Assembly: GCF_014230085.1 (NCBI RefSeq)
Contig: NZ_JACHVB010000064.1
Location: 62,001 to 126,000, forward strand
Direction of reading: 5' to 3'
DNA from: Ruficoccus amylovorans
GTDB taxonomy: Bacteria > Verrucomicrobiota > Verrucomicrobiia > Opitutales > Cerasicoccaceae
Length of the DNA stretch: 64,000 nt
A model generated the notes under the pieces. That model made no database searches. It was not told the origin of the DNA and was given only the letters and a program-made list of their open reading frames with translations. Below, piece by piece: positions 1 to 63,451 of the stretch; position 1 is the stretch's first letter; each line of letters starts with the position of its first letter. Both the position numbers and the translations under genes were made by a program.

Positions 1-222
1 GCGAATTTGGCGCTCTGGCTATTTCTTTATGGCCTTTCTGGGTTTGCCGGTACCCCCCTACGGTGCCTCAGTGCCTTTGTGGTTAAATTGATAAAGCCGT
101 CCGGGAGTGTGGAAGGGAACTTGCCTTGTGCCGCGCCTGTCATGGAAGCCGTTGCCTAATAAAGGCTCGCCTTCGCGGTTGCTTTGGGGGCGCTTTTTTA
201 GCAACCTGCTTATTTATCAACC
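1..222. other. Non-coding leader before the lpt operon
   Basis: No credible reading frame was found. Positions 61-90 hold one arm of dispersed repeat family A, followed by TAAATTGATAAAGCCGT, which loosely resembles the sequence after another family A copy near 33022. A hairpin GGTTGC...GCAACC with an 18-base loop lies at about 177-206, just before lptC; it could end an upstream transcript or sit in the operon leader. No clear -35/-10 pair or Shine-Dalgarno was identified. Confidence 0.5.
61..90 (-). repeat. Family A repeat arm (single, diverged)
   Basis: The sequence reads GTGCCTCAGTGCCTTTGTGG then TTAAATT. This is a diverged copy, in the right-arm orientation, of the family A repeat (reverse-complement core ACCGCAGAGGCGCAAAGA) found at eight other loci here. 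No opposite arm is visible within the window. Confidence 0.6.
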
Positions 223-1251: not shown

Positions 1252-2027
1252 TGTCCGCCGAGAACGAGACCGTCGTCATGCCCGCCCTGGAGGGGGAGTC
1301 GGCCCACGGCTCCATCCATACCAAGGGCTTGGTCAAGACCTACGGCAAGCGCACCGTGGTCAAGGGCGTGGACGTTCGCGTGGATGCGGGCGAGATCGTC
1401 GGCCTGCTCGGCCCTAACGGCGCGGGCAAGACCACTACCTTTTACATGGTGGTGGGGCTGGTTGAGGCCACCGGCGGACAGGTCTTTCTGGACCAGCACG
1501 ACATCACCGCCAAGCCCATGTACCGCCGCGCCCGCATGGGCATCGGCTACCTGCCGCAGGAGCCGTCGGTTTTTCGTAAGCTGAGCGTTTACCAGAATAT
1601 CCTCGCCGTGGTGGAGACGCTGCCCGTTCCCCGCCGGGAGCGGCGCGACTTCGTCATGGCTCACCTGGAAGAGCTTGGCCTGGACAAGCTGGAAAAGCAG
1701 AAAGCCTACACGCTTTCCGGTGGGGAGCGCCGCCGCCTGGAAATTACCCGGGCGCTGGTCGCCCGTCCGCGTTTCATGCTGTTGGACGAGCCCTTCAGCG
1801 GGGTGGACCCGATCAGCGTGGCCGAGGTGCAGGACATTATCCGCGGCCTCAAGAGCAAGAACATCGGCGTCCTCATCACCGACCACAATGTGCGCGAAAC
1901 CCTCAGCATCGTGGACCGTGCCTATCTCATCCACCAGGGTGAGGTGCTCTGCGAGGGCAGCAGCGACTTTCTTGTCAACGACCCCAAAAGCCGGGAGTTC
2001 TACCTCGGCGCGAACTTCAACCTCTGA
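1251..2027 (+). CDS. lptB: LPS export ABC transporter ATP-binding protein LptB
   Basis: This is a 258-residue ABC ATPase. Walker [10 protein letters not shown] is at residues 54-62, the signature LSGGERRR at 154-161, Walker B FMLLDEP at 174-180 and the switch histidine in ITDHNV at 211. The motif [12 protein letters not shown] and the short C-terminus match LptB closely. It powers LPS extraction from the inner membrane together with LptF/LptG, which are not in this window. The protein carries about 20 extra N-terminal residues compared with enteric LptB (241 aa). It is the third gene of the lptC-lptA-lptB-hprK operon, and hprK starts five bases after its stop. Confidence 0.95.
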
Positions 2028-2032
2028 TCGTC

Positions 2033-2995
2033 ATGCCCCCTCAACCCAACGCCAAGATCATCGAAAGCATTTCTGTCCGCGACTTTTTCGACTCGTTCGC
2101 GGAAAAGCTCGAGCTGGAACTGGTCACCGGGGAGGAGGGGATGAAGCGCTTCATCCGCGAAAAGAGCATCAACCGGCCCGCCCTCGCGCTGACCGGCTAT
2201 TTCAAGCACTTTGCCAACCGGCGGCTCCAGCTCTTCGGGGCCGGGGAGATGGCCTACCTGCGCGATCTCAACGAGGAACAGCAGTTGCGCATCGTGCGCG
2301 AAATCATCGCCCGGCATATCCCCTGCATTATCGTCTCGCGCAACCTCGTGCCGATCAAGGCCATGTACACCGCCGCCGAGGAGTCGCGCACCCCGATGTT
2401 CCGCACCCCGATGAAATCGAAGGACTTCATCGCCGAAACCACCATCCTGCTGGAGGACAAGTTCGCCCCCCGCACCAGCATTTACGGGACCTTGCTCGAC
2501 ATCAAGGGCATCGGCACCCTCATCCGGGGCAAAAGCGGCGTAGGCAAAAGCGAATGCGCTCTCGCCCTGATCGAGCGCGGGCACAGCCTCGTGGCCGACG
2601 ACGTGACTTATATCAAGAAGGTCGGTGACCGCGAGATCGTCGGCACCAGCGCCGAACTCAACCGCGGCTATATGGAGTGCCGGGGCATTGGTATCATCAG
2701 CGTGAGCGATCTTTTCGGCATCCGCTGCGTGCGGTTGGAGAAGCGGATCGACCTCGTGATCACCTTTACCGAGTGGCAGCCGGGCATCGACGAGGAGCGA
2801 ACCGGCCTGGAGCTCGCTTATTATGAGATTCTCGGGATGAAGGTGCCCCACATCATGATTCCCGTGCGGCCTGGGCGGGATATGGCCCGTCTGGTCGAGG
2901 TGGGCGCTCTCGTGCAGGCCCTCCGTCTGATGGGACATGACTCGGCCAACGAGTTCAATGAGCGTCTCATCGCCGCGATGACCTCCGGTTCGTGA
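2033..2995 (+). CDS. hprK: HPr kinase/phosphorylase
   Basis: The 320-residue protein has the two-domain HprK layout. The C-terminal kinase half has the P-loop GKSGVGKS at residues 166-173, the acidic pair in VADDV at 189-190 and the HprK signature region [11 protein letters not shown] at 214-224. HprK phosphorylates and dephosphorylates a serine of the PTS protein HPr. No PTS gene lies in this window, so here it may serve a regulatory PTS rather than sugar uptake. It is tightly linked to lptB, echoing the lptB-rpoN-hpf-ptsN-hprK neighbourhood of many Gram-negative bacteria but without the intermediate genes. Confidence 0.95.
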
Positions 2996-22702: not shown

Positions 22703-22856
22703 AGCGGTTTAAATAAAGTCGTAGCCCCACAAAAAGGCCGAATGGCTAAATAGTTAAATGGCTAATTGTTGTTTTCTACGTTCCGCATCCAACAATTAAC
22801 AATTGGCCATTTAACCATTTAACGATGGTGGCTACAGTATTTCTTAAACCGCTCTA
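22700..22856. mobile_element. MITE-like element 1, TA-bounded (family B)
   Basis: This 157 bp non-coding element has imperfect terminal inverted repeats (TAGAGCGGTTTAAATAAAG at the left; reverse complement of the right end TAGAGCGGTTTAAGAAATAC). Both ends carry TA. The core has an internal inverted repeat, AATGGCTAAAT...GCTAATTGTTG and CAATTAACAATTGGCCATTT. A second copy in reverse orientation lies at 53484-53606. Its first TAG is the smc stop codon and its last TA is the target of the adjoining IS630-type element. Confidence 0.82.
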
Positions 22857-24013
22857 GTGTGGTGAGTCTAAAGTTTTCGTCATAATAATATTGATATTTT
22901 CTATGATTACGTCATTTATTTATTAATGACACGTCCAGGCCGTCCGGCCACGCCCATAACCTTGTCTTTAGAAGAGCAATCGGCCCTTGAAGGGCTGGTT
23001 CGTAAGCGTAATGCACCGGCGCAGGAGGTTCAGCGAGCCAAGATGGTCTTGCTGGCTTCGCAGGGGCTGAGCAACCGGAGCATTGCCGCGGAGTTGTCCG
23101 TCAAGGCGCACACGGTGGGTTACTGGCGCAATCGTTTTGCCGCCGGGCGGTTGCCCTCATTGAGCGAAGCGCCGCGCAGTGGCCGCCCCCGTACGATTAG
23201 CGATGAGCAGGTGGCCGAAGTGGTGCGTCTGACTTTGGAGCAAAAGCCGGAGTGTTCCACCCACTGGAGCACCCGAACGATGGCTCAGCGCATGGGCCTG
23301 TCCCAAACGAGGATCAGCAACATCTGGCGTGCCTTTCAGTTGCAACCGCATCGCACTGAGAGCTTCACGCTCTCGAAGGACCCTTACTTCGTGGACAAGG
23401 TGCGCGACGTGGTGGGCCTGTACATGAGCCCGCCGGACAACGCCCTGGTCTTTTGCGTGGATGAAAAGAGCCAGATACAGGCCCTGGAGCGCAGCCAGCC
23501 GGTTCTGCCTCTGCGTCCGGGCGCGCCCGAGCGGCAGACCCACGATTATTACCGCCATGGCACCACCTCGCTCTTTGCCGCTCTTGACGTGGCTACCGGA
23601 GAGGTCATCAGCAGCCTCAAGCCACGTCATCGCAGCCGCGAGTTCCTCAGCTTTTTGCGCCAGATCGAACGCACCGTGCCCGAGGGGTTAGACATTCACA
23701 TCGTTCTGGACAACTACGCCACTCACAAGACCGACACCGTCAACCAGTGGCTCAGCAAGCGTCCTCACTGGCACCTGCATTTTATCCCCACGCACTCCAG
23801 TTGGCTCAACCAAGTCGAACGCTTCTTCGCCCTCATCACCACCCGGGCCATCCGGCGAGGCTCCTTCGCAGCACTCGAGCAACTCAAGCAGGCCATCAAC
23901 GACTATATCGACCTCCACAACCAAAATCCAAAGCCATTCGTTTGGACCGCTTCCGCCGATGCCATACTCGGGAAGGTCGCTCAATTATGCCGAAAACTTT
24001 AGACTCACCACAC
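22857..24013 (+). mobile_element. IS630-type insertion sequence, complete
   Basis: The 1157 bp element has perfect 23-bp terminal inverted repeats (left 22857-22879 starting GTGTGGTGAGTCTAAAG; right 23991-24013). It is flanked on both sides by TA, the duplicated target of the IS630/Tc1-mariner group. It carries one intact transposase gene that ends inside the right repeat. The perfect repeats and open frame suggest a recent insertion. It sits against the right end of the MITE-like element 1. Confidence 0.96.
22926..24002 (+). CDS. IS630 family transposase
   Basis: This 358-residue DDE transposase has an N-terminal helix-turn-helix part ([20 protein letters not shown] at about residues 51-70 and a second HTH near [15 protein letters not shown]). 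The DDE catalytic core follows, with [12 protein letters not shown] (first Asp), [12 protein letters not shown] (second Asp) and [12 protein letters not shown] (Glu). The [11 protein letters not shown] and HSSWLNQVE phrases are diagnostic of IS630. The gene is full length and uninterrupted, so the element is potentially active and could mobilise the related TA-bounded elements next to it. Confidence 0.97.
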
Positions 24014-24221
24014 TAGTGTGCTGTGAGCTAAGTTCCTCGCATAAGTTTTGGGGTGCAACCCAGTTTGGATGTTCCTCAGGGATTGTTGCTTTTAGCCAAG
24101 CTAAAAGCAACAATCCCTGACGCGATGCGGCAGCATCGAAAGTGCAGGCTATGCCTGCTGCGGGGCTTGGGGGCGCATAGCCCCCAAAAAATATGCAGCA
24201 AACTTCGGTAACCGCACACTA
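24014..24221. mobile_element. MITE-like element 2, TA-bounded
   Basis: This 208 bp non-coding element runs from TAGTGTGCTGTGAGC to CGGTAACCGCACACTA; the ends are short imperfect inverted repeats (TAGTGTGC(T/G)G). It contains a perfect 21-bp stem with a three-base loop at 24076-24120 and further hairpins (CGATGC...GCATCG at 24123-24138, GCAGGC...GCCTGC at 24144-24158, GGGGGC...GCCCCC at 24170-24186). It starts at the TA shared with the right end of the IS630-type element. Confidence 0.78.
24076..24120. repeat. Perfect 21-bp hairpin inside MITE-like element 2
   Basis: TCAGGGATTGTTGCTTTTAG-C (24076-24096) pairs with its exact reverse complement at 24100-24120 around a CAA loop. No T-run follows on either strand, so it is unlikely to be a classic terminator. 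A stem this perfect suggests recent formation or constraint on the structure. Confidence 0.9.
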
Positions 24222-24371
24222 GTGTCGTGTTAGCTAAGTTCTTAACAAATGTTAATGGCCACAAAAAGGCACAAGAAGCACAAAAAACTTCGTGGATACA
24301 GAGGTCGCTCTGCGTCTTTGCGCCTCTGCGGTGAAAATATTTTTATCAGGAACTAAGCTAACGGGACACTA
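24220..24371. mobile_element. MITE-like element 3, TA-bounded, with family A arms inside
   Basis: This 152 bp element has terminal inverted repeats TAGTGTCGTGTTAGCTAAGT (left) and, reverse-complemented on the right, TAGTGTCCCGTTAGCTTAGT. It shares its left TA with element 2. Inside are a degenerate family A left arm (about 24258-24284, CCACAAAAAGGCACAAGAAG) and a good right arm (24307-24336, CTCTGCGTCTTTGCGCCTCT). The right TA at 24370-24371 overlaps the stop codon of the PEP-CTERM gene on the minus strand. Confidence 0.8.
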
Positions 24372-25001
24372 GCAGAGCGTGCTCCGTGCCAAGCGGCGGT
24401 ATCGGTAGCCGCCAAGGACGAGCAGGCCCGCCAACCCGCCGAGCCAGGTGGTGATGGCGGGTTCGGGGATGGCTGAGCCGACGGCGTAATTCACCGTGAA
24501 AACAATATCCGCGTCGATGTTCTCAAAGGTGATCTGGCCGGAACTGTCGGGGGCCACGCCAATCTGCTCGAAGGAGTAGTTGATGGTGAAGGCACCGTCC
24601 CAGATGACGGCTAACAGCGAGTCGAAGTACTCGACGCTGTAAAAGGTCAGCTTGCCAAAGGAGGCGTCGAATCCGCCGATGCCGGTCAGGTCTTCGGGAG
24701 TGAAGCCGCTGATCGGGTTCCAGGGGATGCCCTCGACCAGAAAGTCCTCGTACTCCCCGTAGTGATACGCCCCGGAGGGCACGACGACGGCGATGGCGTT
24801 GGTCAGGTTCGCTCCGGCGGAGCCGGTGGTCCATGTCGATGCGCCCAGGTCCAGGGTATCGGTGCCGCTGAAGGTGATTCTGGTTTCGTTGGCCGAGAGC
24901 GCCTCGAAACTGATCAGTAACTGCGCGCGCGCGCAGGCGAGAGAGGCCAGCAGCGTCAGCAGGCTGACACCGGTGGTGGTCCAGATGGAGTTCGGTTTCA
25001 C
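24369..25001 (-). CDS. PEP-CTERM sorting domain protein
   Basis: The 210-residue protein has a signal peptide (WTTTGVSLLTLLASLACARA), a beta-rich extracellular domain with no recognised family, and a C-terminal PEP-CTERM tail: IPEPA followed by a hydrophobic segment WLGGLAGLLVLGG and the basic end YRYRRLAR. Such proteins are cut and sorted by exosortase at the cell envelope; no exosortase gene is in the window. The last residues STLC and the TAG stop abut a mobile element end, so the original C-terminus may have differed by a few residues. Confidence 0.85.
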   Translation of the reverse strand: MKPNSIWTTTGVSLLTLLASLACARAQLLISFEALSANETRITFSGTDTLDLGASTWTTGSAGANLTNAIAVVVPSGAYHYGEYEDFLVEGIPWNPISGFTPEDLTGIGGFDASFGKLTFYSVEYFDSLLAVIWDGAFTINYSFEQIGVAPDSSGQITFENIDADIVFTVNYAVGSAIPEPAITTWLGGLAGLLVLGGYRYRRLARSTLC

Positions 25002-32950: not shown

Positions 32951-33040
32951 TTCCACCGCAGAGGCACAAAGACGCAGAGCGATCTCTGGGTGTTTGAAGG
33001 CTTTTGTAGTCCTCTTGTGCCCTTAAATAAAGCCGTATCC
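32951..33040. repeat. Family A repeat pair
   Basis: The left arm TTCCACCGCAGAGGCACAAA plus GACGCAGAGC (32951-32980) is a good family A copy. The right arm (about 33003-33028, TTTTGTAGTCCTCTTGTGCC) is degenerate and runs into TTAAATAAAGCCGTATCCC, which resembles the end of MITE-like element 1 (TTTAAATAAAGTCGTAGCCC). Confidence 0.7.
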
Positions 33041-33063: not shown

Positions 33064-33228
33064 CTAGACAGCGGCGAGGATGCCGCCGACAAAAGCGATC
33101 AGGCCGATTAGCGTCCATTCCGCCACGGCTTCATCCTTCGCCCCGATCCGCCAAGACATCAATCCGTGCAGCAGGAACGGCGACCCGAGTAGGAGGCCGA
33201 AGACGAAAATGACGATGAAACCCAACAT
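33064..33228 (-). CDS. Small membrane protein, hypothetical
   Basis: A 54-residue product from ATG 33228 has two membrane segments (MLGFIVIFVFGLLLGSPFLL and WTLIGLIAFVGGILAAV) joined by a short charged loop. A longer frame starts at 33300, but its extra 24 residues are polar and unlike the rest. No family is recognised. It lies between family A repeats and may be small but real; coding support is weak. Confidence 0.4.
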   Translation of the reverse strand: MLGFIVIFVFGLLLGSPFLLHGLMSWRIGAKDEAVAEWTLIGLIAFVGGILAAV

Positions 33229-33321
33229 AATACCTAAACCGTAGTACCGTATTGCCAGTGATTCAAGAGATTTGAGATCGCGTATCCTGCAGGAGAGCAA
33301 CCCGCAGGTGCCCGATCAAAG

Positions 33322-33350
33322 CCTCTGAGTCTTTGCGCCTCTGCGGTAAA
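33322..33350 (-). repeat. Family A repeat arm (single)
   Basis: CCTCTGAGTCTTTGCGCCTC then TGCGGTAAA is a close right-arm copy of family A. It lies 107 bases before the DUF748 gene and 94 bases from the small membrane protein start. Together with the pair at 32951-33040 it brackets the small membrane protein gene. Confidence 0.8.
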
Positions 33351-33456
33351 AACAAAACCATTTCGCGAGCCGCAGAGGAGATAAACGTCTGCTTTGAGCG
33401 TCATTTTTATCATACCGGTGGTTGCACCGTCGCATGAATGCTCCTAGCGTGGGGGT

Positions 33457-41122: not shown

Positions 41123-41206
41123 TTAACCACAGAGGGCACAGAGAACACAGAGAGGTTCTATCTTAATTCTTTTCTTCTCTGTGTTCTCTGTGCCCTCTGT
41201 GGTTAA
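41123..41206. repeat. Family A repeat pair, perfect 31-bp palindrome
   Basis: The left arm TTAACCACAGAGGGCACAGA plus GAACACAGAGA (41123-41153) and its exact reverse complement (41176-41206) surround a 22-base spacer. The arms are a sequence variant of family A in which GCAAAG is replaced by GCACAG. The unit fills the gap between leuB (stop) and alaS (start), both on the minus strand, so RNA of the leuB 3' gap would form a strong hairpin. Confidence 0.92.
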
Positions 41207-53291: not shown

Positions 53292-53371
53292 ATCCACGGG
53301 CCGGCCAGCGTGCTGCGCTTTGGCGTGTTTATAAATGACTGCCGCGAATGCTAATCGCGGTGGATGGTGGA

Positions 53372-53662
53372 TTAACCGCAAAGGCGCAGAGGCGCAAAGA
53401 GGGTTTTTTCGCGACGGACCCGGTGCTTTCTGCGCTGGGTGGTGATGATGTTATTCAAGCATCGCGAATTGCAGGCAGTGGTTGAATGGCTAAATGGCCA
53501 ATTGTTAATTGTTGGATGCGGAACGGGGAAAACAACAATTAGCCATTTTATCATTTAGCCATTCCGTCTTTCGGTGGACGGCTACGGTTTTGTTTAAACC
53601 GCTCTATGTGTACAGTGGCGTCCTCTCATAAAAACCTCTGCGTCTTTGCGCCTTTGCGGTTA
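53372..53662. repeat. Family A repeat pair flanking a MITE-like copy
   Basis: The left arm TTAACCGCAAAGGCGCAGAG plus GCGCAAAGAGG (53372-53402) and right arm (53635-53662, reverse complement TTAACCGCAAAGGCGCAAAG plus ACGCAGAGG) face each other across 232 bases. Between them lies a reversed, truncated copy of MITE-like element 1. The pair occupies the convergent gap between the DUF3748 and aldolase genes; no gene is present in 53292-53698. Confidence 0.85.
53484..53606 (-). mobile_element. MITE-like element 1, second copy, reversed and truncated
   Basis: The core (AATGGCTAAATGGCCAATTG ... TTAGCCATT) is the reverse complement of the 22740-22823 core with only a few differences. The right side GGTGGACGGCTACGG...TTTAAACCGCTCTA matches the reversed left end of the 22700 element. 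The other terminal repeat is missing, its place being taken by sequence next to a family A arm. Confidence 0.85.
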
Positions 53663-53698
53663 AGCAAAAACCGTCATCGGTTAGGCAACGCTGCGCGA

Positions 53699-59251: not shown

Positions 59252-59281
59252 TCTCGGTGCCTTTGTGCCTCCGTGTGAGTT
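59252..59281 (-). repeat. Family A repeat arm (diverged)
   Basis: TCTCGGTGCCTTTGTGCCTC followed by CGTGTGAGT is a diverged right-arm copy of family A after uvrB. No left arm is seen. Confidence 0.5.
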
Positions 59282-62903: not shown

Positions 62904-62980
62904 ACGCCGCGCACCATTGACGGTTTACGCCCCCGGGGCAACGGGAAAGCACCGCTTCAGCATGATCTGAGGGGTGCTTT

Positions 62981-63012
62981 TTCACCACAGAGGCACAAAG
63001 GCACAGAGAGGT
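62981..63012 (+). repeat. Family A left terminal repeat of GxxExxY cassette
   Basis: TTCACCACAGAGGCACAAAG followed by GCACAGAGAGGT is the left inverted repeat, 13 bases after the GxxExxY stop. It lies 77 bases upstream of the rph start. Confidence 0.88.
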
Positions 63013-63025
63013 GAAGGTCTGGCGT

Positions 63026-63409
63026 TTACAGTGCCAACCGCTGAATACCGTCTTTGATGAGCGCAGAGTTAAAGTTAATCAACAGGCCCAGTCTGCATCT
63101 ACTTAGTTTCAAGTAAGTGAGGAGTTGGGCTTTATGGACCGGAAGAAGACTCTCAGTGGCTTTAAGCTCTACGATGAGTTTGCGCTCCACCCATATATCC
63201 AATCTCAACCCGGCGTCCAAGGTGACATCATCGTAACGGATGGGAAGGCTGACTTGTGACTCGGCATGTACACCTCTTTTTCTCAGTTCATGGAGCATGC
63301 AAGCCTCGTAAACGGACTCAATAAGCCCCGGGCCCAAGGTGGTGTGAACTTTAAAGGCAGAATCAACAACCAGGCCGGAGAGATGGTTGTACTCATCTGG
63401 CGGGCCCAT
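63026..63409 (-). CDS. GxxExxY family protein, PD-(D/E)XK nuclease-like
   Basis: The 127-residue protein matches the GxxExxY family: G28-x-x-E31-x-x-Y34 within TTLGPGLIESVYEACML, then LRLDIWVERKLIVELKATES, which carries the PD-(D/E)XK-like residues D71, E81 and K83, and Q95 in HKAQLLTYLK. The family has been placed with PD-(D/E)XK nucleases, but its biochemical role is not known. The gene is bracketed within a few bases by family A inverted repeats and interrupts the rph-ispG gap. The start ATG lies four bases inside the right repeat. Confidence 0.93.
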   Translation of the reverse strand: MGPPDEYNHLSGLVVDSAFKVHTTLGPGLIESVYEACMLHELRKRGVHAESQVSLPIRYDDVTLDAGLRLDIWVERKLIVELKATESLLPVHKAQLLTYLKLSRCRLGLLINFNSALIKDGIQRLAL

Positions 63410-63413
63410 CTTA

Positions 63414-63445
63414 AGTTCTCTGCGTCTTTGCGCCTCTGCGGTGAA
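63414..63445 (-). repeat. Family A right terminal repeat of GxxExxY cassette
   Basis: AGTTCTCTGCGTCTTTGCGC followed by CTCTGCGGTGAA is the right inverted repeat. It ends six bases before the ispG stop codon and four bases before (on the minus strand) the GxxExxY start, so it may also act as that gene's leader. Confidence 0.88.
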
Positions 63446-63451
63446 ATAACT

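Follow-up and report, generated by a model that had tools for sequence, protein, structure and literature searches.

The GxxExxY gene studied here and the two inverted repeat arms that enclose it appear to form one heritable unit, in which a small predicted PD-(D/E)XK nuclease is paired with its own cognate repeat and would act on it as RAYT proteins act on REP/REPIN sequences. We assign this reading a probability of about 0.6. GxxExxY enzymes probably have a repeat set of their own, as RAYT has REP, although the two kinds of enzyme are unrelated. In the following, the window denotes the whole 64-kb stretch of DNA that was analysed.

A predicted nuclease gene between two inverted arms

The gene lies between rph and ispG and encodes a protein of 127 aa that matched PF13366 (PDDEXK_3, E 2e-40) and TIGR04256 (E 9e-42) in profile searches, the two matches scoring 142 bits against a curated cut-off of 35 and 138 against 22. 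The first-pass annotation had already described a 127-residue protein with D71, E81 and K83 as PD-(D/E)XK-like residues; all three are invariant in 61 homologues, as are G28, E31, Y34, Y99 and N112, and Q95 is nearly so, yielding the motifs E81-x-K83 and Q95xxxY99. The closest solved fold to the structure model (pLDDT 96) is Cas4 SSO0001 (Z 9.7), with weaker matches to lambda exonuclease and other PD-(D/E)XK enzymes. As modelled, the protein has the core fold of the PD-(D/E)XK superfamily with the conserved D and ExK. The residues E31, D71, E81, K83, Q95 and Y99 follow one another in an order that we take to be typical of RecB/Cas4-class motifs, and the protein is presumably a nuclease. A profile search of the PDB with the family returned chance matches alone and no close solved homologue by sequence. 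PF13366 was the sole Pfam match in the gene unit, which included neither the HUH/Y1 domain PF01797 nor a transposase of a known family. A function in defence was considered and dropped, as PADLOC-DB, which holds known anti-phage defence systems, gave no match at E 0.01. The literature searched contained no paper on GxxExxY genes or their repeat words, and we found no assigned role.

Both arms of the gene consist of a TTTCACC leader and then three 8-bp units that fit CRCRRAGR (Table 1). They match at 26 of 32 positions, the same count as had been obtained at first, and lie close to the gene as described then, the distances being 14 bp on the stop-codon side and 5 bp on the start-codon side instead of 13 and 4 bases. 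The local inverted-repeat score at the gene is 46, compared with a maximum of 30 in shuffled sequence. Nine further arms were detected in the window at a threshold of at least 20/30, at which shuffled sequence gave none. They are located at six places, three of which are inverted pairs; the dispersal of the repeat reported in the first-pass annotation is thereby upheld, with nearer six places than the eight other loci counted there.

Two side observations concern sequences between loose arms. An ORF for a predicted membrane-like protein of 78 aa (33064-33300, minus strand), without a Pfam match, lies inside the arm pair 32951/33351. A second dispersed palindromic repeat of ~165 bp (AATGGCTAAATGG...CCATTTAGCCATT, ends TTTAGAGCG...) is present at 22740-22850 and 53500-53600 and also in L014, L020 and L022, and is once nested between the arms 53371/53664.

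Table 1. Positions of the GxxExxY gene, repeat arms and the arm-carrying MITE in the window
Feature	Position	Strand	Description
Solo arm	58..87	-	TTTAACC type
IS630-type MITE	24219..24372		154 bp, terminal CTAGTGTC..., CTAGTGT ends
Loose arm, first of inward pair	32951..32980	+	pair without GxxExxY gene
Loose arm, second of inward pair	33322..33351	-	pairs with arm starting at 32951
Gene-less arm pair	41123..41206		hairpin, loop ~24 bp; TTAACCACAGAGGGCACAGAGAACACAGAG and its inverse
Loose arm, first of inward pair	53371..53400	+	pair without gene
Loose arm, second of inward pair	53635..53664	-	pairs with arm starting at 53371
Solo arm	59252..59281	-	CTCACACGG type, as L004/L005 genes
Inverted arm, gene 3' end	62980..63011	+	leader TTTCACC and three 8-bp units CACAGAGG CACAAAGG CACAGAGA
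GxxExxY protein gene	63026..63409	-	127 aa; PF13366 and TIGR04256 matches, conserved residues, structure model
Inverted arm, gene 5' end	63415..63446	-	TTTCACC and CGCAGAGG CGCAAAGA CGCAGAGA

Bracketing of GxxExxY genes across genomes and phyla

The genome (4.5-Mb assembly), which we place in Verrucomicrobiota on the evidence of its relatives, encodes seven GxxExxY genes with tight inverted arms at 7/7, and the arm words differ among them (CACAGAGG, CACGAAGGA, CGCGAAGnnn, CAGGAAGGA, CACAAAAG). At locus L006, the arms flanking the GxxExxY gene face outward and one of them is common to the neighbouring unit, in which the gene for a T5orf172/MUG113 (GIY-YIG-like) protein (1943-2596, minus strand) adjoins the GxxExxY gene and lies between inward arms; three arms thus serve two nuclease genes. 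Two related GxxExxY genes located ~1.4 kb apart (L004/L005, G000:C12:220029-221921) each have their own arm pair of the CTCACACGG type.

Among 53 loci from ten genomes of the same family, the median score of a locus's own arm pair was 40 versus 18 for mispaired flanks, i.e., left and right flanks combined at random between loci. The corresponding medians were 35 and 19 in a cross-phylum sample (80 loci taken, 75 testable) from more than ten phyla, namely Bacteroidota, Cyanobacteria, Planctomycetota, Proteobacteria, Desulfobacterota, Chloroflexota, Acidobacteria, and others. An inverted-repeat score of 24 was reached by 83% of the GxxExxY genes versus 2.8% of 357 other ORFs on the same contigs, and a score of 36 by 47% versus 0.6% (p 4e-33 for bracketing). 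All seven genes of the own genome and most of the 75 loci have inverted arms of three or more 8-10-bp units. The tandem period of GxxExxY arms is 8-10 bp, and the arm sequences of the family and cross-phylum loci contain neither a GT(A/G)G head nor a palindrome. GxxExxY genes of relatives, which the first-pass annotation had suggested inspecting for flanking repeats, are therefore generally enclosed by arms.

Genes for PF05635 four-helix-bundle (23S-IVP) proteins in the same genomes are also bracketed, with 19/30 loci above the 95th percentile of mispaired flanks. Their arms are composed of 7-bp units (AGTTTGA, GAATTAT, AGTGCGG), in contrast to the 8-10-bp units of GxxExxY arms, and scanning 1.4 Mb de novo gave the same split in unit length. 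The four-helix-bundle (23S-IVP/bAvd-like) loci comprise L176-L205 (PF05635), L124 (5081-5530) and L162 (11089-11506), each with its own 7-bp word in inverted arrays.

Arm sequence differs between loci, whereas the two arms of one locus agree. Protein identity correlates with arm similarity both within the own family, after removal of pairs with shared flanks (rho 0.39, p 0.001), and across phyla (rho 0.26, p 0.002), and the correlations are the same with or without GC correction. Leader classes (CTC versus others), which were set by simple pattern rules such that a few labels may be wrong, require 5 changes on the protein tree, while shuffled labels require a mean of 21 and a minimum of 15. 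As judged from these sequence comparisons, arm type follows the protein tree.

Dispersed arms in gene-bearing genomes

Loose arms were surveyed in 145 genomes of the phylum with a strict three-unit pattern that sees one arm type with an 8-bp period. The pattern was present in 49/68 gene-bearing versus 6/77 gene-less Verrucomicrobiota genomes (p 3e-16); counted by family, it stands at 26/7 with the gene versus 2/8 without it (p 0.001). Gene-bearing genomes contain 1350 matches in total compared with 112 for the reversed pattern, and the own genome contains 119 compared with 2, a count that includes overlapping matches and MITE-borne copies. The pattern, which covers 8-bp-period arms alone, is absent from 19 gene-bearing genomes. 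Gene number and arm number are weakly related within gene-bearing genomes (rho 0.24, p 0.046).

The 27-mer CTCACACGGAGGCACAGAGGCACGGAG of the L004/L005 gene type occurs 36 times in the own genome (14 exact copies) and 14, 9, and 5 times in three congeners, with one weak match in six genomes of other genera. Identity does not extend beyond the 27-mer, each place examined having flanks of its own, and no MITE carrier was found at the examined copies of the CTCACACGG arm family. Genome G001 has 14 CTCACACGG arms and no gene of that type; arm spread may therefore proceed without a resident cognate gene, or copies may outlive the gene.

The copies that the first-pass annotation united as family A are dispersed as stated there, but some of them are carried by an unrelated MITE. 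The 154-bp IS630-type MITE has captured an arm pair, consisting of 24251-24286 (plus strand) and the window copy at 24308-24336 (minus strand), and brings it to ~17 places in the genome. The own arm of the window gene has 22 exact copies in the genome, most of which lie inside this MITE and were therefore not counted as arm spread; an interpretation of the 22 copies as recent spread was dropped, most being MITE-borne hitchhikers. An IS630-like element with a DDE_3 transposase gene (22926-24002) and ends CTAGTGTGGTGAGTCTAAAG occupies 22854-24016.

Orthologous sites and inheritance

At the L007 site, gene and arms are present in the own genome and, with matching flanks, in G004, G007, and G009, while G003 has a gene-less arm hairpin and G001 and G002 have neither gene nor arms. 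The L002 site holds gene and arms with three different words in the own genome, G001, and G002, and a C-terminal gene stub with one arm in G003. At the L005 site, the own genome and G002 have the gene, while G001 has one arm of another type. Arm pairs occur where the gene is absent, and it follows from the stub with its arm and from the gene-less pairs at orthologous sites that gene loss leaves arms behind. The gap between groES and dnaK (flanking gene names assigned by eye) contains an arm pair in the own genome, is empty in G001, contains a pair of another type in G002, and in G003 (L256) contains an arm pair around a different ORF. This ORF encodes 107 aa with four cysteines near the C-terminus and has no confident Pfam match (weak EAD11); its interpretation as a zinc ribbon was made by eye and has no support from Pfam. 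The groES-dnaK gap of G001, the one clean empty site, gave no sign of a target-site duplication. The solo arm at 59252 is absent from the orthologous place in G001. The gap between rph and ispG, which the first-pass annotation had suggested comparing in close relatives, does lack the gene in G001, yet it is not a clean empty site, as one degenerate arm is located at the same place. A wide synteny comparison with G001 recovered only the last 7 kb.

GxxExxY genes are largely inherited vertically and under purifying selection. Flanks are shared across genera at many loci, and dN/dS values, taken where synonymous sites are unsaturated, lie at 0.03-0.22. GxxExxY genes were found in 8/72,556 plasmid records and 0/50,697 phage records, and a plasmid- or phage-borne element was rejected on these counts. 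Vertical inheritance across genera and this near absence from plasmids and phages leave no support for free movement, as was implied by the minimal mobile unit of the first-pass annotation. The likeness of orthologue arms is ~0.89 within a locus, a value that is inflated by the delimitation of arms through their own best alignment, versus 0.75 on average between orthologues, with values as low as 0.3; the per-group test of within-locus versus between-locus likeness was marginal (p 0.052).

Proposed mechanism and alternative explanations

We propose that the predicted GxxExxY nuclease would bind the short tandem units of the two arms, probably as a dimer that spans the pair, and would cut or nick at the arms. 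Host repair could then place copies of an arm or an arm pair at further intergenic sites and keep the two arms of a locus alike. Gene-less pairs would originate from gene loss and from spread in trans, and solo arms would partly be the remains of gene-less pairs, which would make the enzyme a resident repeat-maintaining nuclease. The parallel to REP and RAYT that had been drawn from the window sequence extends to the bracketing of the gene, the tracking between arms and protein, the loose arms in genomes with the gene, and the gene-less pairs, but not to a freely moving gene. It is tempting to go further and propose an independently evolved second enzyme-plus-dispersed-repeat system across Bacteria, in which a minimal Cas4-like nuclease, with its own word per gene, recognises the tandem units of inverted arms and both maintains and spreads arm pairs, and which would belong to a wider class together with four-helix-bundle (IVP/bAvd-like) proteins and their 7-bp words; to this broader proposal we give slightly less than even odds.

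The arms might instead be a MITE-like family moved by another enzyme, with the GxxExxY gene as a frequent passenger or with the repeats serving it as landing sites. Such an origin would accommodate that arm pairs also enclose other ORFs (T5orf172/MUG113 beside L006, the unclassified ORF in G003), that the IS630-type MITE transports an arm pair, and that arms of a type without a resident gene are numerous in G001. It is nevertheless unlikely, as arm type tracks the GxxExxY protein tree, the arm period differs with the protein (8-10 bp in GxxExxY arms, 7 bp in four-helix-bundle arms), and other ORFs in the same contigs are almost never bracketed. Alternatively, the protein could autoregulate via the arms as cis-regulatory sites, and loose arms could be decayed remains of lost genes. 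The few bases between the upstream arm and the start codon and the decayed L002 site of G003 agree with this idea. However, 119 pattern matches versus 7 genes are far above any plausible number of lost genes, the 14 exact copies of the 27-mer, which are sharp-edged and set in unrelated flanks at the places examined, have the look of copied sequences and not of remains, and autoregulation needs no downstream inverted arm, so that we consider it quite improbable.

An RNA-level element like a 23S rRNA intervening sequence, in which the arms form a transcript stem that is processed by RNase III and the gene lies in the loop, would be compatible with the inversion of the arms and with the same architecture at four-helix-bundle 23S-IVP relatives. 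This possibility is very improbable given that the loci are intergenic and outside rRNA, and that mismatches between arms have no preference for G.U-compatible changes (103 vs 122, p 0.23). The lack of such a bias means that there is no sign of RNA-stem selection and fits matching of the arms as DNA; the RNA stem was rejected on this negative asymmetry test. A known RNA family was also rejected, as the Rfam search of the window returned none.

Comparison with known systems

RAYT genes lie between inverted repeats that are also dispersed, their position is fixed while the repeats drift, and the repeat type tracks the protein (PMC2817692, PMC3116915). As in REP/REPIN-RAYT, the small GxxExxY gene lies between two inverted repeats, further copies of which are scattered through the genome both as single arms and as inward pairs, orthologues keep their place while the flanking arms change together (with a marginal per-group test), and the repeat type tracks the protein. 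Unlike RAYT, the GxxExxY enzyme is a predicted PD-(D/E)XK nuclease and not an HUH tyrosine transposase (PF01797), and unlike REP, its arms are tandem 8-10-bp units without an internal palindrome or a GT(A/G)G head. Set against REP-RAYT, the GxxExxY system is found in phyla across Bacteria.

Inverted ends, gene-less derivatives and intergenic copies are shared with MITEs and IS elements such as IS630 and its MITE in the window, from which the GxxExxY unit differs by lacking a DDE or HUH transposase, by arms that differ between loci of one genome, and by a mostly vertically inherited gene; a target duplication was not seen at the one clean empty site. Classical intervening sequences interrupt rRNA. 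Those of 23S rRNA with an S23/IVP ORF (PF05635) resemble the GxxExxY unit in that a small ORF lies between inverted repeats, and intergenic PF05635 genes of the same genomes also lie between tandem-unit arms, but the protein is different and the PF05635 unit length is 7 bp. With Cas4, RecB and lambda exonuclease, the GxxExxY protein shares the predicted fold and the motif order E, D, ExK, QxxxY; it differs from this class as a single 127-aa domain, and no CRISPR or recombination partners were seen beside it at the loci read.

As GxxExxY genes occur commonly in numerous phyla, the link to their own repeats provides a testable function and would account for many short interspersed repeats that so far lack an explanation. 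The pair-specific words additionally represent a natural set of protein-site combinations for studying changes of specificity in a small nuclease. By analogy, the GxxExxY system is best read as working like REP-RAYT without being a member of it, i.e., as a non-homologous counterpart, and a lifestyle like that of REP-RAYT may have emerged around an enzyme unrelated to RAYT.
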